From Haloarcula marismortui ATCC 43049 (GTDB lineage: Archaea > Halobacteriota > Halobacteria > Halobacteriales > Haloarculaceae): DNA of 64,000 nt. Below, one piece after another: positions 11,861-19,524 of the stretch. The first letter of the stretch is position 1. Each line of letters opens with the position of its first letter. The stretch is from the NCBI RefSeq assembly GCF_000011085.1, contig NC_006396.1, positions 1,116,001-1,180,000 of the forward strand, written 5' to 3'. Both the position numbers and the translations under genes were made by a program. The notes beneath the pieces are model-generated. The model was not told where the DNA came from and searched no databases. It saw only the letters and a list, made by a program, of their open reading frames with translations.

Positions 11861-11920
11861 CGGAGAGAGTAGCGGTCACTGTCGATTGATTGCGTCGCAA
11901 ACGGCGTGTTTTTCGCGGGA

Positions 11921-12663
11921 ACACCACCCTTCGAGTGTTCTTTGGAGGAGCGTGGCTGGCCAGCTATCACTCCAGCGGCTGTTCACGACTGGACAGCCTG
12001 TACAGCCCGGATATACCAACCAGACAGGGATTACGCTACTGTACGAAGTCCATGCGAGTGATACTGAGTCGGTACACCACCCTACAAGTGTTCTGACATC
12101 ACCAGACAGTTGACCCGACACCACCATACAAGTGTTCTATCACCACCCTGCGAGTGTTTCCAGTTCGACTACAGCCAGACCAGAATGGTGAACACGTGTT
12201 CACACACCACCCTGCAAGTGTTCGCACGGAAGGTGTGCAAGCGTCTGAATCTACGAAAACACCACGCTGCAAGTGTTTTTGTGGCGTTGTTCCGAGTTCC
12301 GATTCGCCCTTGCACACCACCGTGCAAGTGTTTCACGTACTGCTTGAGGTGTGTGAGAGTATGCTGAGACACCACCCTGCAAGTGTTCCAAAAGGCCGTT
12401 TTGGGCGGTTTTCCCGTCGGATCGGGTTCACACCACCCTGCAAGTGTTTTCGAAACGGAATACGTAGGGTCGTGGTGGAACCGGACGGACACACCGGTCT
12501 GCAAGTGTTCTACACACTGCAGCGGGGAACAGATACCAGATAACCGCCTGTTTGCACCCCCTTTCACTGTCTACTGTGGGGACACACACCACCCTGCAAC
12601 TGTTCTGGACGCCACAATAGTTAGACCGCCGCTGAACACACACACACCACCGTGCAAGTGTTC
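11921..12663 (+). repeat. Array of 12 direct ORB-like repeats downstream of cdc6
   Basis: Twelve same-orientation copies of a 20-mer with consensus ACACCACCCTGCAAGTGTTC begin at 11921, 12074, 12118, 12140, 12204, 12259, 12314, 12369, 12430, 12491, 12586 and 12644. Copies 5 and 8 match the consensus exactly; the others differ by one to three bases. Starts in the middle of the array are 55, 55, 55, 61 and 61 bases apart. There is no gene in this 830-base stretch. The same 20-mer flanks the AT-rich region beside cdc6, so these are almost certainly binding sites for that initiator. In Haloarcula hispanica an ORB-rich region downstream of cdc6E is reported to restrain oriC2 by titrating the protein. 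Confidence 0.9.
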
Positions 12664-12688
12664 TGCCGTGTGAGCCGACGGGGGGTGG

Positions 12689-14017
12689 CTACGTGAACTG
12701 CCAGAGGTTCTGTTGCTCGTCGTCAGTAGTGTCCGGTGCCTCGAACTCAGTCGCCTCGTCTTCCAGATAATGTTCGAGAATCCCGTTGACGTTACTCGGC
12801 ACAGCATCGCTGTAGGAGGACTGGAGTGCAGCGTTGATGATGTCGGTCGGGTCATCAGTGACTTCATAAATATACTTGCGTCCGCCCTTGCGGCCAAGGT
12901 TGCGTTCCGCAGAACGGACCAGTCCCTGCATTGAGAGCTGGTCAAGGAACTCGTATATCTTCCGCTCGGATTTCACGCGGCGACCGCTCGACTCCGCGAT
13001 AGAGGAATAGAGATTGTAGATCCGTTTTGTCGACGCCTCGTGTTTCGGCTCGATGAGTGCAAGCGTCGTGGCGAGATAGGTCAATGCTTGTTGTGAACTC
13101 AGATCGTGCTCGAAGTAATCCAGCAGTTCATCGGTTTCGATAGTGTCCGTCGCCCGCCGTGTATGTGCCTCCGTTACACCCTCTGCACCCTCCATCCGCG
13201 CGTACTCCCCGGCCTTTTCGAGGATTCGGAGTCCCTGCCGAACGTCACCGCGTTCCTGTGCAGAGAAGGCTGCTGCCAGCGGGACGACATCTTCGCCGAG
13301 CACGTCCTCCCGGAACGCGATGTCGGCGTAGTAGCCAAGAATATCTCGAAGTTCAGTCGCGTCATATGGGCCGAACTTGATCTCTCGCTCCCCCAGCGTC
13401 GATTTCACCTTGGGTTCCAGTACGTCGACGAACTTGAGGTCGTTTGAGATACCGATAAGTCCAACCTTCGCATCGGTGATCGGCGTGTTCTCGTTCGCTT
13501 CGGCCCGCGGCAGTTCGTAGAGAAAGTCGTTCCGTGCATCCGCAGGAATGTTGTCAATCTCGTCCAGAATAATAAGCACGTTCCCGCCCACAGCCTCTAT
13601 CTCTTCGTAGAGGAACTCGAAGACGCTGTCAGTGCTGTAGCCGCTCTCCGGGAGCTGGTTCTCAGGATCCCGGAACTCGTTGACGAGCGTATTTACCAGT
13701 GCATACGCCGACCGGTAGTTCCGGCAGTTAATCGGACCGACAACGGTGAGCGGGATATCCTCAGCCTCGGCTTTCTCTTCGAGTTTATCTCGTACCCACT
13801 TTGTAACAGCAGTTTTGCCGACTCCTGTTGGACCATAGACGAAGACGTTGTTGGGGTCGTGGCCGACAATGACATCCTGAAGTGCGTTGATGTAGAATTC
13901 GATTTCCTCGTCGCGGTGAAAGATCGTATCCGGCGTGAACGTGTCTTTTTTCAGCGGTTGTTTTCGTTCGAAGATCGAATCAGTCCCGTCGAACGGGTTC
14001 TCGTTCACGTCGACCAT
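12689..14017 (-). CDS. cdc6E: Orc1/Cdc6 replication initiator
   Basis: This 442-residue AAA+ protein binds origin recognition boxes and loads the MCM helicase. Walker A is YGPTGVGKTAV (residues 61-71). Walker B is VLIILDEIDN, sensor 1 lies near VGLIGISNDLKF, and a C-terminal winged-helix DNA-binding domain follows (ERKIYEFLDQLSMQGLV). I choose ATG 14017 (MVDVNENPFDG). A TATA box lies 28 bases upstream, and the longer frame would read through a binding box. It sits between the 12-box array and the AT-rich origin, the arrangement described for cdc6E of Haloarcula hispanica. The gene name rests on that resemblance, not on a sequence comparison. Confidence 0.93.
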   Translation of the reverse strand: MVDVNENPFDGTDSIFERKQPLKKDTFTPDTIFHRDEEIEFYINALQDVIVGHDPNNVFVYGPTGVGKTAVTKWVRDKLEEKAEAEDIPLTVVGPINCRNYRSAYALVNTLVNEFRDPENQLPESGYSTDSVFEFLYEEIEAVGGNVLIILDEIDNIPADARNDFLYELPRAEANENTPITDAKVGLIGISNDLKFVDVLEPKVKSTLGEREIKFGPYDATELRDILGYYADIAFREDVLGEDVVPLAAAFSAQERGDVRQGLRILEKAGEYARMEGAEGVTEAHTRRATDTIETDELLDYFEHDLSSQQALTYLATTLALIEPKHEASTKRIYNLYSSIAESSGRRVKSERKIYEFLDQLSMQGLVRSAERNLGRKGGRKYIYEVTDDPTDIINAALQSSYSDAVPSNVNGILEHYLEDEATEFEAPDTTDDEQQNLWQFT

Positions 14018-14040
14018 CGTATTCCACCTTTTGAGTGGCT

Positions 14041-14050
14041 CTATATAAAA
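14041..14050 (-). promoter_or_regulatory. TATA box of cdc6, adjoining an ORB
   Basis: On the minus strand this reads ttttatatag, centred 28 bases before the cdc6 ATG at 14017, so the transcript should be leaderless. A recognition box (14055-14074) abuts the upstream side, where TFB would contact DNA. Binding of Cdc6 there could repress its own gene. Confidence 0.65.
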
Positions 14051-14054
14051 CCAG

Positions 14055-14074
14055 TGACCACCGTTCAAGTGTTT
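14055..14074 (+). repeat. Origin recognition box, degenerate copy at the cdc6 promoter
   Basis: This copy reads TGACCACCGTTCAAGTGTTT, with four mismatches to the array consensus. A partial second unit (caagtgtttt) follows at 14075. Confidence 0.75.
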
Positions 14075-14100
14075 CAAGTGTTTTCACGCCGAACAGTCAC

Positions 14101-14120
14101 ACACCACCCTGCAAGTGTTT
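14101..14120 (+). repeat. Origin recognition box, left side of the unwinding region
   Basis: This 20-mer matches the array consensus apart from the final T, and it has the same orientation as the downstream array. Confidence 0.85.
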
Positions 14121-14200
14121 CTCCGCTCCCACTCGAAAACAGTTACGAGCGGCCTGCTACACCGATACCTGACTTAACACACTTGATTCCTGCGATTCTT

Positions 14201-14300
14201 CATTCTCTAGTCAATGACTAGATATGGAACTAGATATTATTTTTATATCTTATGGTATATGCAATATAGTCTGGTTACTGTTGAATAGCACAGTCTATAG
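14201..14300. other. AT-rich duplex unwinding element
   Basis: This stretch is far richer in A and T than anything else nearby (for example gatattatttttatatctt at 14235-14254). It contains a 7-bp inverted repeat with one central base (CTAGTCA-A-TGACTAG, 14207-14221) and a repeated ctagatat. It lies between oppositely oriented recognition boxes, the place where archaeal origins melt. Confidence 0.75.
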
Positions 14301-14453
14301 AATCTACTTCGGAAGGGGTCTGTAACGGCTAAATCTATGTATTCAGGTACAGTACCGACCACACAGTCTCGGCGAGACAGAACAATCTCCACTCTATTTA
14401 AATATAGTGACGTGGTTCCGCCACTCCCCGCCCCCACCCCCTGCAAACCCCGA

Positions 14454-14473
14454 GAACACTTGCAGGGTGGTGT
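14454..14473 (-). repeat. Inverted origin recognition box, right side of the unwinding region
   Basis: Read on the minus strand it gives the consensus 20-mer exactly. It is the only copy in this orientation, and it closes the origin opposite the box at 14101. Confidence 0.88.
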
Positions 14474-14629
14474 GTGTGGGTCCCGCTCTGTCACGAATAT
14501 TTTGGCAGAAATCTCACTCAATGTCCACACGGCATGAAACCCCATTCCACAGCGAAATGCGGCTGGTGCACCGAGCCAGCCCACTGCGCACGGCATCGTC
14601 TTTACTTTGTGACAGGCCGTAGACACTGT

Positions 14630-15427
14630 ATGGACGACCTCACAGTGACATTCATCGACCGAGGCCGCGTACAGGCTGACCGAAACTTCGTCGTTGACGG
14701 CCACAGCGTCGCGACAGCCTCTCACCGTGACCCGGAGCACGAGTACGAAACGTACGTTGTATGGAACCTCATCATCGAGACGCCCGAGCTAACCGTCCTC
14801 TGGGACACCGGCTCTCACCCAGAGGCCGGCGACGGGTACTGGCCGACGCCGCTGTACGAGGCATTCGCACACACCGATGCCGCCGAGCATGCCCTGCCGG
14901 CAGATCTCGAAGATGCGGGCTACAGCATCGACGAGATCGATGCCGTCGTGATGAGCCACCTGCATCTGGACCACGCTGGCGGCCTGCGCAATTTCGCGGG
15001 AACGGACGTGCCAATCTACGTCCACCGCGAGGAACTCCCATACGCGTACTACAGCGCCAACACGGACGACGGTTCTATCGCTTACCTCGCCAGCGATTTC
15101 GACCGCGACCTGAACTGGGAGATCGTTCACGGCGACAGCTATCACCTCACCGATGGTATCGAACTGCTTCACCTCCCTGGCCACACCCCAGGGCTCATGG
15201 GTGCATTCATCGACCGCCCGGACCAGTCGCTCCTCGTCGTCGGCGACGAAGCCTACGTTGAGGCGAACTACGCGGGCCAACCAATGGCGACAAGCCTCCT
15301 GTGGAACAACGGCGCGTGGAAGGAGAGCCTCGAACGGTGCCGCGACCGCCAGCGGGCCACGGGGGCTGAAGTCCTACTCGGCCACGACCTCGGGGTGTTT
15401 GAGGACGTAGCCGGGGCGACAGACTGA
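14630..15427 (+). CDS. Metallo-beta-lactamase-fold hydrolase, N-acyl homoserine lactonase-like
   Basis: This 265-residue protein has the dinuclear zinc motif MSHLHLDHAGG near residue 107. Further ligands are LPGHTPG and a C-terminal LLGHDLG. The opening WNLIIETPELTVLWDTGSH and overall length match the AiiA-like lactonase branch rather than glyoxalase II. I start at MDDLTVTFIDRG (ATG 14630); upstream codons run into the origin. Predicted activity is opening of a lactone or a related ester hydrolysis. A quorum-quenching role is only a possibility. Confidence 0.88.
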   Translation: MDDLTVTFIDRGRVQADRNFVVDGHSVATASHRDPEHEYETYVVWNLIIETPELTVLWDTGSHPEAGDGYWPTPLYEAFAHTDAAEHALPADLEDAGYSIDEIDAVVMSHLHLDHAGGLRNFAGTDVPIYVHREELPYAYYSANTDDGSIAYLASDFDRDLNWEIVHGDSYHLTDGIELLHLPGHTPGLMGAFIDRPDQSLLVVGDEAYVEANYAGQPMATSLLWNNGAWKESLERCRDRQRATGAEVLLGHDLGVFEDVAGATD

Positions 15428-16683: not shown

Positions 16684-18582
16684 ATGACAGACAACGAACT
16701 AATCTGGCGAATCGCCGGTGGTTCCGGTGACGGAATCGACTCGACAAGCCAGAACTTCGCGAAGGCCTTGATGTGGTCGGGGCTGAACGTGTTCACACAC
16801 CGTCATTACCCGTCGCGTATCCGCGGCGGCCACACGTACGTGGAAGTACGTGCAAAGGACGAACCGGTACAGTCCCGTGGGGACGGCTACAACTTCCTGC
16901 TGGCACTGGGTGACTCCTTCGCCCGGAACCCACAGGAAGAGGCCTACTACGGGAAAGAAGAGCTCAAACCGCTGTACGAGAACTTCGACGACCTCCGAGA
17001 AGGCGGCGTTCTCCTCTACGACGAGGGGCTGCTCGACGACGAGGATGTCGACGAAATCGGGCTCGAAGAGGCTGCCGAGGAGAACAACTGGCACGTCGTC
17101 CCGATGGACCTCCGCGGCATCGCCAAGGAGCACGGCCGCGAGATTATGCGGAACACGGCCGGTATCGGCGCGACAGCGGCGATTCTCGATATCAGCACCG
17201 ACGAGTTCGAGAAACTCATCACACAGAATATGAGCGGCGACATGCAGGAGGCGAACCTTAACGTCCTGCACGACGCCTACGAAGCCGCCAGCGAACTCGA
17301 TGTCGACCACGACATCGAGGTCCCCGAGGGCTCCCACGACGAGGAGCAGGTCATTCTCTCGGGCTCGAACGCCATCTCCTACGGCGCAATCGACGAGGGC
17401 TGTCGTTTCATCTCGGGCTACCCCATGACTCCGTGGACCGACGTGTTCACGATCATGTCACAGCATCTGCCCGAGTTCGGCGGCATCTCCGAACAGGTCG
17501 AAGACGAGATCGCGGCCGCTGCGCTGGCGCTCGGTGCATCCCACGCCGGCGTGAAGGCCATGTCCGGGTCCTCCGGCGGTGGCTTCGCGCTGATGTCCGA
17601 ACCGCTCGGACTGGCAGAGATGACCGAGACGCCTATCGTGCTGGTCGAAGCGATGCGGGCCGGCCCCTCGACGGGGATGCCGACCAAGCCCGAGCAGGCT
17701 GATCTTGAGCACGTCCTGTACACCTCACAGGGCGACTCCGCCCGCGTCGTGTTCGCACCGGCGAACATCCGCGAGTGTTACACGCAGACCCGCTCGGCGT
17801 TCCGCATCGCCTACGAGTACCAGATCCCGGTCATCGTTATCTACGACCAGAAGATTCAGGGCGAACTCCGAAACCTCCCGGCCAGCCACTTCGACGAGGA
17901 GCCAAACGCCGATCCCGGCTCGGTCCTCACCGAAGAGGAGATTCAGGACGCCGCACACCACTCCTCCGGGAAGTTCCAGCGGTTCCTCCACGAGCCCGAG
18001 GACGGCTCGAACGTCAGCCCGCGCTCCGTGCCGGGCCAGAAGGACGGCCGCTTCCTCGCGACAGGCAACGAGCACAACCCATCGGGTCACATCAGCGAGG
18101 ACCCCGAGAACCGCATCGCCCAGATGAACCGTCGGCTCAACAAGCTCGACGACATCCGTGCTGATCTGGACGAGAACACGTCCCACCAGACTTACCACGG
18201 ACCCGAGGAAGCCGACTACGGCATCCTCGTGTGGGGCAGCCAGCAGGGGACCGTCTTCGAGGCCGTCGACCGACTCAACGAGAACGGCCACTCCGTGAAG
18301 GCGCTTGGCGTCTCCGACATGGCTCCGTACCCGAAGGAAGAAGTCTCTGAGTGGCTCGAATCAGTCGACGAGGCACTTGTCGTCGAGATGAACGCGACGG
18401 CCCAGTTCCGCGGTCTTACCCAGAAGGAACTCGGCAAGTACGGCGACAAGCTGTCGAGCTTGCTCAAGTACAACGGCAACCCCTTCGAGCCCGCCGAGAT
18501 CGTCGACGGGTTCGAATCCAGCATCGACGGCGAGGAACTCGCCGCGAGCAACATGAAGTACGTACCCGCGGCAGGTGACTAA
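16684..18582 (+). CDS. 2-oxoacid:ferredoxin oxidoreductase alpha subunit (PorA/KorA type)
   Basis: This 632-residue subunit carries a gamma domain (residues 1-190, opening WRIAGGSGDGIDSTSQNFAK) fused to the alpha pyrimidine-binding domain (from about 220, ISYGAIDEGCRFISGYPMTP). With the beta subunit it oxidatively decarboxylates a 2-oxoacid to its acyl-CoA, reducing ferredoxin. The beta gene starts three bases after its stop. Haloarchaea have pyruvate and 2-oxoglutarate versions with this layout. Proximity to methylmalonyl-CoA mutase recalls the kor locus of other haloarchaea as I remember it, while the subunit sizes also fit por. I leave the symbol blank for that reason. Confidence 0.93.
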   Translation: MTDNELIWRIAGGSGDGIDSTSQNFAKALMWSGLNVFTHRHYPSRIRGGHTYVEVRAKDEPVQSRGDGYNFLLALGDSFARNPQEEAYYGKEELKPLYENFDDLREGGVLLYDEGLLDDEDVDEIGLEEAAEENNWHVVPMDLRGIAKEHGREIMRNTAGIGATAAILDISTDEFEKLITQNMSGDMQEANLNVLHDAYEAASELDVDHDIEVPEGSHDEEQVILSGSNAISYGAIDEGCRFISGYPMTPWTDVFTIMSQHLPEFGGISEQVEDEIAAAALALGASHAGVKAMSGSSGGGFALMSEPLGLAEMTETPIVLVEAMRAGPSTGMPTKPEQADLEHVLYTSQGDSARVVFAPANIRECYTQTRSAFRIAYEYQIPVIVIYDQKIQGELRNLPASHFDEEPNADPGSVLTEEEIQDAAHHSSGKFQRFLHEPEDGSNVSPRSVPGQKDGRFLATGNEHNPSGHISEDPENRIAQMNRRLNKLDDIRADLDENTSHQTYHGPEEADYGILVWGSQQGTVFEAVDRLNENGHSVKALGVSDMAPYPKEEVSEWLESVDEALVVEMNATAQFRGLTQKELGKYGDKLSSLLKYNGNPFEPAEIVDGFESSIDGEELAASNMKYVPAAGD

Positions 18583-18585
18583 CCT

Positions 18586-19524
18586 ATGAGTGCATTCTCA
18601 GCAATCAACGAAGAACGCGAAATCGAGCGCGACGAGTTTACACCCGGCATCGAACCCCAGGCGACTTGGTGTCCGGGCTGTGGCGACTTCGGCGTCCTCA
18701 AGGCGCTCAAGCAGGCCATGCCGGAAGTCGGCAAGAACCCCGACGAAGTCGCGCTGTTCACCGGTATCGGCTGTTCGGGGAAGCTCAACAGCTACTTCAA
18801 CAGCTACGGCTTCCACACCATCCACGGCCGCTCGCTGCCCGTCGCCCGGGCCGCGAAGCTCGCCAACCCCAACCTCGAAGTCATCGCGGCCGGTGGGGAC
18901 GGCGACGGCTACGGTATCGGTGGGAACCACACCATCCACACGGCCCGTGAGAACCACGATATGACGTATATCGTGTTCAACAACGAGATCTTCGGGCTGA
19001 CAAAGGGCCAGACATCCCCGACATCGCCGAAGGGCCACAAGTCAAAGACACAGCCCCACGGCTCGGCGAAGTCGCCGATCCGCCCTCTGTCCCAGCAGCT
19101 CAACGCCGGTGCGACCTACATCGCCCGGACCGCGGCTGTCAACCCGAACCAGGCGAAGGAAATCATCGCCGAAGCCATCGAGCACGACGGCTTCGCGCAC
19201 ATCGACTTCCTGACCCAGTGTCCGACCTGGAACAAGGACGCGAAACACTACGTCCCGTACACGGACGTCCAGCAGTCCGACGAGTTCGACTTCGACGTCT
19301 CGGACCGCGCGGAAGCCGCCGAGATGATGCGAAAGACCGAAGAGCGACTGTACGAAGGCGAAGTGCTCACCGGTCGGATGTACATCGAAGACGAGCGCCC
19401 CTCCTACGGCGAGGAGAAGCGCCAGATCGGCGAAATGCCCGAGGAACCGCTCGCAGAGCGGTACTTCGACGAGGACGCGGAGTGGGAGCGGACCTACGAC
19501 AACCTCCTCGAACACCACAAATAA
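18586..19524 (+). CDS. 2-oxoacid:ferredoxin oxidoreductase beta subunit (PorB/KorB type)
   Basis: This 312-residue subunit binds thiamine diphosphate and an iron-sulfur cluster. The N-terminal TWCPGCGDFGVLKAL supplies two cluster cysteines. TGIGCSGKLNSY carries another. The TPP motif is GGDGDGYGIGGNHTIH, continued by FNNEIFGLTKGQTSPTS. A later Cys (TQCPTW) is likely the fourth ligand. It begins three bases after the alpha gene, giving stoichiometric expression. Ferredoxin is not encoded here. Confidence 0.94.
   Translation: MSAFSAINEEREIERDEFTPGIEPQATWCPGCGDFGVLKALKQAMPEVGKNPDEVALFTGIGCSGKLNSYFNSYGFHTIHGRSLPVARAAKLANPNLEVIAAGGDGDGYGIGGNHTIHTARENHDMTYIVFNNEIFGLTKGQTSPTSPKGHKSKTQPHGSAKSPIRPLSQQLNAGATYIARTAAVNPNQAKEIIAEAIEHDGFAHIDFLTQCPTWNKDAKHYVPYTDVQQSDEFDFDVSDRAEAAEMMRKTEERLYEGEVLTGRMYIEDERPSYGEEKRQIGEMPEEPLAERYFDEDAEWERTYDNLLEHHK

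Follow-up and report, generated by a model that had tools for sequence, protein, structure and literature searches.

Organization of the locus

The window, the 64-kb stretch of contig NC_006396.1 of Haloarcula marismortui ATCC 43049 that was analysed here, contains an orc1/cdc6 initiator gene with repeated boxes on both of its sides. The product of the gene matches TIGR02928 (E=1.8e-109) and carries the Pfam Cdc6_lid and Cdc6_C winged-helix domains, its best solved relatives are 2qby_A (Cdc6 homolog 1) and 2v1u_A, and its nearest relatives, with 97–100% identity, are found in named Haloarcula species. The 15-base core of the box, CACCCTGCAAGTGTT, has 16 matches with at most three mismatches across the window. 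Fifteen of them lie at 11.7–14.6 kb (span 11925–14469), 14 in the + orientation and one in the − orientation, whereas the same 2.9 kb randomised under a first-order Markov model gives 0.05 boxes on average. The features of the locus, with all boxes located by core matches, are as follows:

11861–12688, no strand: region 3' of cdc6, 828 bp, with 12 codirectional boxes, counterpart of oriC2D
11925–11939, +: array box, 2 mismatches
12078–12092, +: array box, 1 mismatch
12122–12136, +: array box, 2 mismatches
12144–12158, +: array box, 1 mismatch
12208–12222, +: array box, exact
12263–12277, +: array box, 1 mismatch
12318–12332, +: array box, 1 mismatch
12373–12387, +: array box, exact
12434–12448, +: array box, exact
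12495–12509, +: array box, 3 mismatches, with a AACACTTGCA half that is invariant across 14 aligned Haloarcula loci
12590–12604, +: array box, 1 mismatch
12648–12662, +: array box, 1 mismatch
12689–14017, −: orc1/cdc6 initiator gene of the Cdc6E/cdc6h type, 442 codons (ATG at 14017, TAG at 12691–12689)
14018–14475, no strand: oriC2 origin region, from the cdc6 start codon to the far box, with inverted boxes around an AT-rich stretch
14040–14049, −: TATA-like element (TTTAW) of cdc6, directly downstream of the composite box, with a putative promoter role
14054–14082, −: gene-proximal composite of a box (core 14059–14073, +) and an extra half-site, with AACACTTGAAACACTTG at 14066–14082
14098–14119, +: second origin box (core 14105–14119), also an arm of the inverted repeat
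14180–14410, no strand: AT-rich putative unwinding element of low GC content
14455–14476, −: far box (core 14455–14469), the only inverted copy and the other arm of the inverted repeat

Within 14041–14475, a 20-bp box, CACACCACCCTGCAAGTGTT, occurs three times, twice in direct orientation (cores 14059–14073 and 14105–14119) and once inverted (core 14455–14469), and the outermost exact box pair forms a 22-bp perfect inverted repeat with arms 335 bp apart. The AT-rich stretch sits within these 335 bp; the GC content is 0.375 at 14200–14399, compared with about 0.49–0.67 in the non-overlapping neighbouring 200-bp windows. All 15 boxes turn their CAAGTGTT end to the AT-rich stretch and point their G-string end outward, and short CACACA runs flank them. 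Inverted boxes around an AT-rich stretch, an adjacent orc1/cdc6 gene and a G-string at the outer box end, as in haloarchaeal origins of the ORB type, occur together at this locus, and the core matches, the inverted repeat, the GC content and the gene families bear out the sequence-only reading of an AT-rich stretch between inverted boxes, upstream of an orc1/cdc6 gene. The same reading saw an extreme asymmetry of one inverted against fourteen direct boxes. The count is exact but does not describe the origin itself, which has two direct boxes and one inverted box; the other 12 direct boxes lie beyond the cdc6 3' end, outside 14041–14475, and the asymmetry arises because this array holds only boxes of the gene-side orientation.

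No Rfam family reaches its gathering score in the window. An open reading frame with motifs resembling those of metallo-beta-lactamases (SHLHLDHAGG, recognised by eye) at 14474–15427 (+) adjoins the far box, with transcription running away from the origin, and two neighbouring open reading frames at 16684–19524 (+) resemble, again by eye, subunits of 2-oxoacid:ferredoxin oxidoreductases.

Relationship to oriC2 of Haloarcula hispanica

The locus is almost certainly the Haloarcula oriC2-cdc6E, which goes by the name oriC2-cdc6h in H. marismortui, and thus the second chromosomal origin, bound by Cdc6E and limited in its firing by the array. In the available portions of PMC3528665, H. marismortui oriC2-cdc6h is named as the counterpart of H. 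hispanica oriC2-cdc6E, and cdc6h is among the genes flanked by ORBs on both sides; this predicted origin, given there without an experiment, is probably the very locus described here. The H. hispanica locus has the same box, a Cdc6 of 99.3% identity and the same order of far box, AT-rich stretch, two near boxes, cdc6 and codirectional array. PMC4441112 describes oriC2 as conserved across Haloarcula and as situated about 20 kb from an rRNA operon that points away from it. In agreement with this, a 16S gene (C8:1106973–1108444, −) lies 20.2 kb to the left of the present locus, where the cdc6 match starts at 1128692, and points away from it, and H. hispanica oriC2 is likewise about 20 kb from a 16S gene.

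The experiments described in PMC3936714 have shown that H. hispanica oriC2 gives a marker-frequency peak that is gone in oriC2 and cdc6E deletions, that its ARS activity requires cdc6E, which can work in trans, that origins and initiators are specifically paired, and that wild-type cells show incompatibility with oriC2 plasmids. A replication peak and autonomous replication with and without cdc6, the two tests that the sequence-only reading had proposed, are therefore already published for the H. hispanica ortholog, and they support that reading in its view of an origin that has a box and a Cdc6 of its own. The stretch can be regarded as a real replication origin with its own initiator and binding sites, already described in the literature; oriC2 as an origin is settled ground, and no new discovery is claimed for it.

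The same source describes oriC2D, a 722-bp region with 11 ORBs downstream of H. hispanica cdc6E, which has no ARS activity, is not deletable alone and lowers the plasmid level, two downstream boxes giving an intermediate plasmid level. Titration of Cdc6E by oriC2D is the inference of its authors, who liken the region to datA of E. coli (PMC3936714), a cluster of DnaA boxes that likewise keeps the initiator from the origin; datA is unrelated in sequence and protein, and the array adjoins the initiator gene here. The array has 12 boxes in 828 bp in the window, compared with 11 in 722 bp in H. hispanica, and the oriC2 homolog of Halorubrum lacusprofundi also has a downstream cluster, but with three boxes reported (PMC3936714). 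In one of the loci compared below (L057), the gap downstream of cdc6 measures 722 bp and contains 11 boxes, and the encoded Cdc6 shares 99.3% identity with that of the window. Since these figures match those of H. hispanica, we take the array of the window to restrain its origin in the way that oriC2D does, by analogy with the ortholog. As such it would be a negative control region of a kind already known from H. hispanica, separate from the origin.

A box private to the oriC2 locus

The claim that the box differs from the widespread haloarchaeal ORB also holds. The oriC1-type locus of the same genome, a label that is inferred, has the box CCCCTTCGTTTCAAGTGG, and the oriC2 box is absent, at up to three mismatches, from 17 of the 18 other cdc6-family loci examined. 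The 15-base pattern with at most two mismatches has 37 matches in the genome, 14 at the locus and 23 elsewhere, and the same pattern written backwards as a control also has 23, indicating that the box is private to the oriC2 locus. The oriC2 box is nevertheless a dialect of the haloarchaeal ORB, with its G-string end away from the AT-rich stretch, and not an unrelated sequence; at other cdc6 loci, 75 of the 87 origins that could be classified have a distal G-string, a further 17 being ambiguous or not classifiable. In viral_contigs, no stretch with two exact cores 15–45 bases apart, as a viral decoy array might have, was found.

Two other loci of the same kind of gene carry related boxes. A 39.5-kb replicon has a single oriC2 box with one mismatch (L037, G000:C3:11508–11522) about 1.45 kb past the end of a divergent cdc6-like gene, and this copy is compatible with a chance occurrence. 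A chromosomal cdc6 locus of the same genome as the window (L024, G000:C8:1399941–1404038) has a near dialect of the oriC2 box, CACCCCACTnTGTCAAGTGTT, at positions 1099–1384 and 2736–2843 of the locus; upstream there is a 104-bp tandem duplication with two boxes per unit (51–57 bp spacing), and inverted copies lie downstream of the gene.

Conservation and polarity among oriC2-type loci

Forty loci with a Cdc6E homolog (L009–L021 and L047–L073) were reduced to 30 distinct loci, 15 from the genus of the window and 15 others, by setting aside nine same-genome duplicates and L072, a homolog of about 43–44% identity without boxes. The Cdc6 proteins of the 30 loci are 67–100% identical, and boxes were counted within 700 bp upstream and 1000 bp downstream of cdc6. 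Of the 30 loci, 29 have two near boxes and a far box that runs the opposite way, the 30th being clipped by a contig end; L063 is clipped on the far side, and L053, also clipped by a contig end, contributes two counted boxes. The number (1–12) and spacing of the downstream boxes vary by lineage, but all 223 of them point towards the origin. Some boxes lie outside the counting windows: one each at −1372 in L065 and L066, three at −795 to −866 in L067, two at +1877 and +1956 in L016 and two more in L021. On a 55.9-kb contig (L062), four more oriC2-type boxes lie about 1.4 kb upstream of cdc6 (−1384 to −1472), outside the origin.

An alignment of 14 Haloarcula loci, with L053 omitted, has shown that the boxes are conserved beyond their surroundings. 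The mean pairwise identity of the three upstream boxes is 0.974, compared with 0.610 for the rest of the 600 bp, and none of 599 circular shifts is as good; for the 12 array boxes the values are 0.854 and 0.542, with 2 of 839 circular shifts as good.

Of 392 genomes of the order, 26 have a Cdc6E homolog at E 1e-100 or better, the box-less L072 included, and within the genus of the window the homolog is found in 15 of 26 genomes and absent from 11. Natrinema, Natribaculum and Haloarcula pelagica have plasmid copies with about 75% identity, which agrees with the published view of oriC2 as an element acquired by integration. The downstream boxes on these plasmids number 2, 4 and 5, compared with 7–12 in Haloarcula (the clipped L053 aside), in a small sample of related loci.

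The array itself has a GC content of 0.51–0.57 without an AT-rich stretch, contains no inverted box pair in a core search at up to three mismatches, and has box spacings in which helical phasing is not evident by inspection. The box flanks in the Haloarcula array are no more alike than shuffled ones (0.27 compared with 0.26 in L047), so that tandem duplication as a visible source of the Haloarcula array was rejected. Elsewhere, clear tandem units of 46–47 bp show that tandem duplication plainly built some arrays, such as that of L064, and single highly similar pairs are seen in L062 and L021.

Polarity in other cdc6 families

The comparison was extended to other cdc6 families with 148 loci, sampled among the matches listed and including a minority of the partial oriC1-type matches; 147 had a match, corresponding to 137 distinct genes, and 136 remained when the locus of the window was set aside. 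At least three boxes with an inverted pair upstream are found in 104 of the 136 loci, and 63 of these have a downstream box. The downstream boxes wholly follow the direction of the gene-proximal box in 46 of the 63 loci, wholly oppose it in 7 and are mixed in 10; box by box, 146 of 182 follow and 36 oppose, in counts that come from a greedy search without a shuffled control and in which the direction of near-palindromic boxes is uncertain. When the loci are clustered by Cdc6 identity, the polarity is seen in 30 of 38 clusters at 90%, 19 of 24 at 70%, 12 of 13 at 55% and 3 of 4 at 45%. A universal law of polarity is rejected by the 7 opposing and 10 mixed loci, leaving a tendency only. Three haloarchaeal cdc6 loci (L128, L134 and L150) have downstream boxes all directed away from the origin, and such exceptions indicate that the polarity is not indispensable in general.

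The gene-proximal composite box

The gene-proximal box of oriC2 differs from all other boxes in carrying an extra half-site, AACACTTG-N, that stands one turn ahead of it. The extra half-site, at six or more of eight bases, is present at all 30 gene-proximal boxes of the oriC2-type loci and at none of the 30 second, 30 far and 223 downstream boxes, and the 17-base composite has one match in the whole genome at up to one mismatch. A TTTAW element within 22 nt after the core likewise follows 30 of 30 gene-proximal boxes, compared with 2 of 283 others (1 of 30 second, 1 of 30 far and 0 of 223 downstream). Other cdc6 families show a weaker association than oriC2: the last upstream box is followed by TTTAW at a distance of up to 25 nt in 28 of 104 loci, compared with 11 of 383 other upstream boxes.

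The TATA-like element of the window lies about 25 bp before the cdc6 ATG, a spacing as in a leaderless haloarchaeal transcript. Since the composite box abuts this element, bound Cdc6E should hinder the start of transcription, and the position of the box suggests that Cdc6E may repress its own gene through it. A search of titles and abstracts, with limited coverage of subscription papers, found no published report of cdc6E autorepression; PMC3936714 speaks of autoregulation for DnaA only, and neither "promoter" nor "autoregulat" occurs in PMC3528665. The origin and the array being already known, the present comparison adds the fixed downstream polarity and the composite promoter box, for both of which a function can be proposed from the sequence.

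A model for the control of oriC2 firing

In the general archaeal model, an initiator bound at boxes of this kind opens the DNA and loads the helicase. At oriC2, Cdc6E, the product of the adjacent gene, would bind its own ORB dialect on both sides of the AT-rich stretch, open the DNA there and load the helicase. Cdc6E would also bind the 12 boxes beyond the cdc6 3' end, and this array, which does not act as an origin, would soak up initiator and limit firing, while the composite box at the TATA-like element would let Cdc6E repress its own gene. Restraint by the array has been shown genetically for the 11-box version of H. hispanica (PMC3936714).

Plain titration predicts no fixed orientation of the boxes, yet all 223 downstream boxes share one. 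Inheritance or tandem duplication can explain the shared orientation, although the spacers of Haloarcula retain no trace of the latter. A tentative alternative, put forward with rather low confidence, is a three-part circuit of fixed geometry, in which Cdc6E fires oriC2, represses its own gene through a dedicated operator, the composite box fused to the TATA-like element, and is held by the array through handcuffing besides titration; polar Cdc6 assemblies would pair array and origin and thereby oblige every array box to face the origin. All 30 loci, with Cdc6 identities as low as about 67%, retain the operator and the polarity of this circuit, while the number and spacing of the array boxes vary freely. 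The natural series of one-polarity arrays of 1 to 12 boxes, together with the operator-like box, offers a test bed for the rationing of initiator in archaea and turns "Cdc6E titration" into an answerable choice among titration, pairing and autorepression.

The stronger proposal that the array restrains the origin chiefly by pairing with it, through Cdc6E handcuffing or looping in the style of iteron plasmids and not by simple titration, seems rather unlikely. The iteron plasmids P1 and F have an origin, an initiator gene and, downstream of these, a group of iterons with the same sequence. The layout and the incompatibility are alike here; the initiator is unrelated, and handcuffing is a proposed mechanism at oriC2. 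Pairing would account for the strict polarity common to the array and the gene-side origin boxes in all 30 loci, a feature that plain titration does not require, and would agree with the incompatibility of oriC2 plasmids with wild-type H. hispanica. However, the polarity may be mere descent, and other cdc6 families include loci of opposite or mixed polarity. The chromosomal array in trans lowered the level of an oriC2 plasmid with an effect that scaled with box number, which titration explains too, and the words "handcuff" and "iteron" are absent from the text of PMC3936714.

It is very improbable that the array represents a dormant second origin or a remnant of such an origin, as its many initiator boxes adjoining cdc6 might suggest: it has neither an inverted pair nor an AT-rich stretch, its boxes and those of the other loci (223 of 223 in 30 loci) run one way, and the H. 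hispanica array on its own lacks ARS activity, so that this candidate was rejected, having already been refuted for H. hispanica (PMC3936714). A chance or low-complexity, CA-rich nature of the repeats, for which the short CACACA runs beside the boxes could be quoted, is practically inconceivable and is refuted by the finding of 15 boxes where 0.05 are expected, by the retention of the box across Cdc6 homologs down to 67% identity and by the higher conservation of the box columns than of the spacers.
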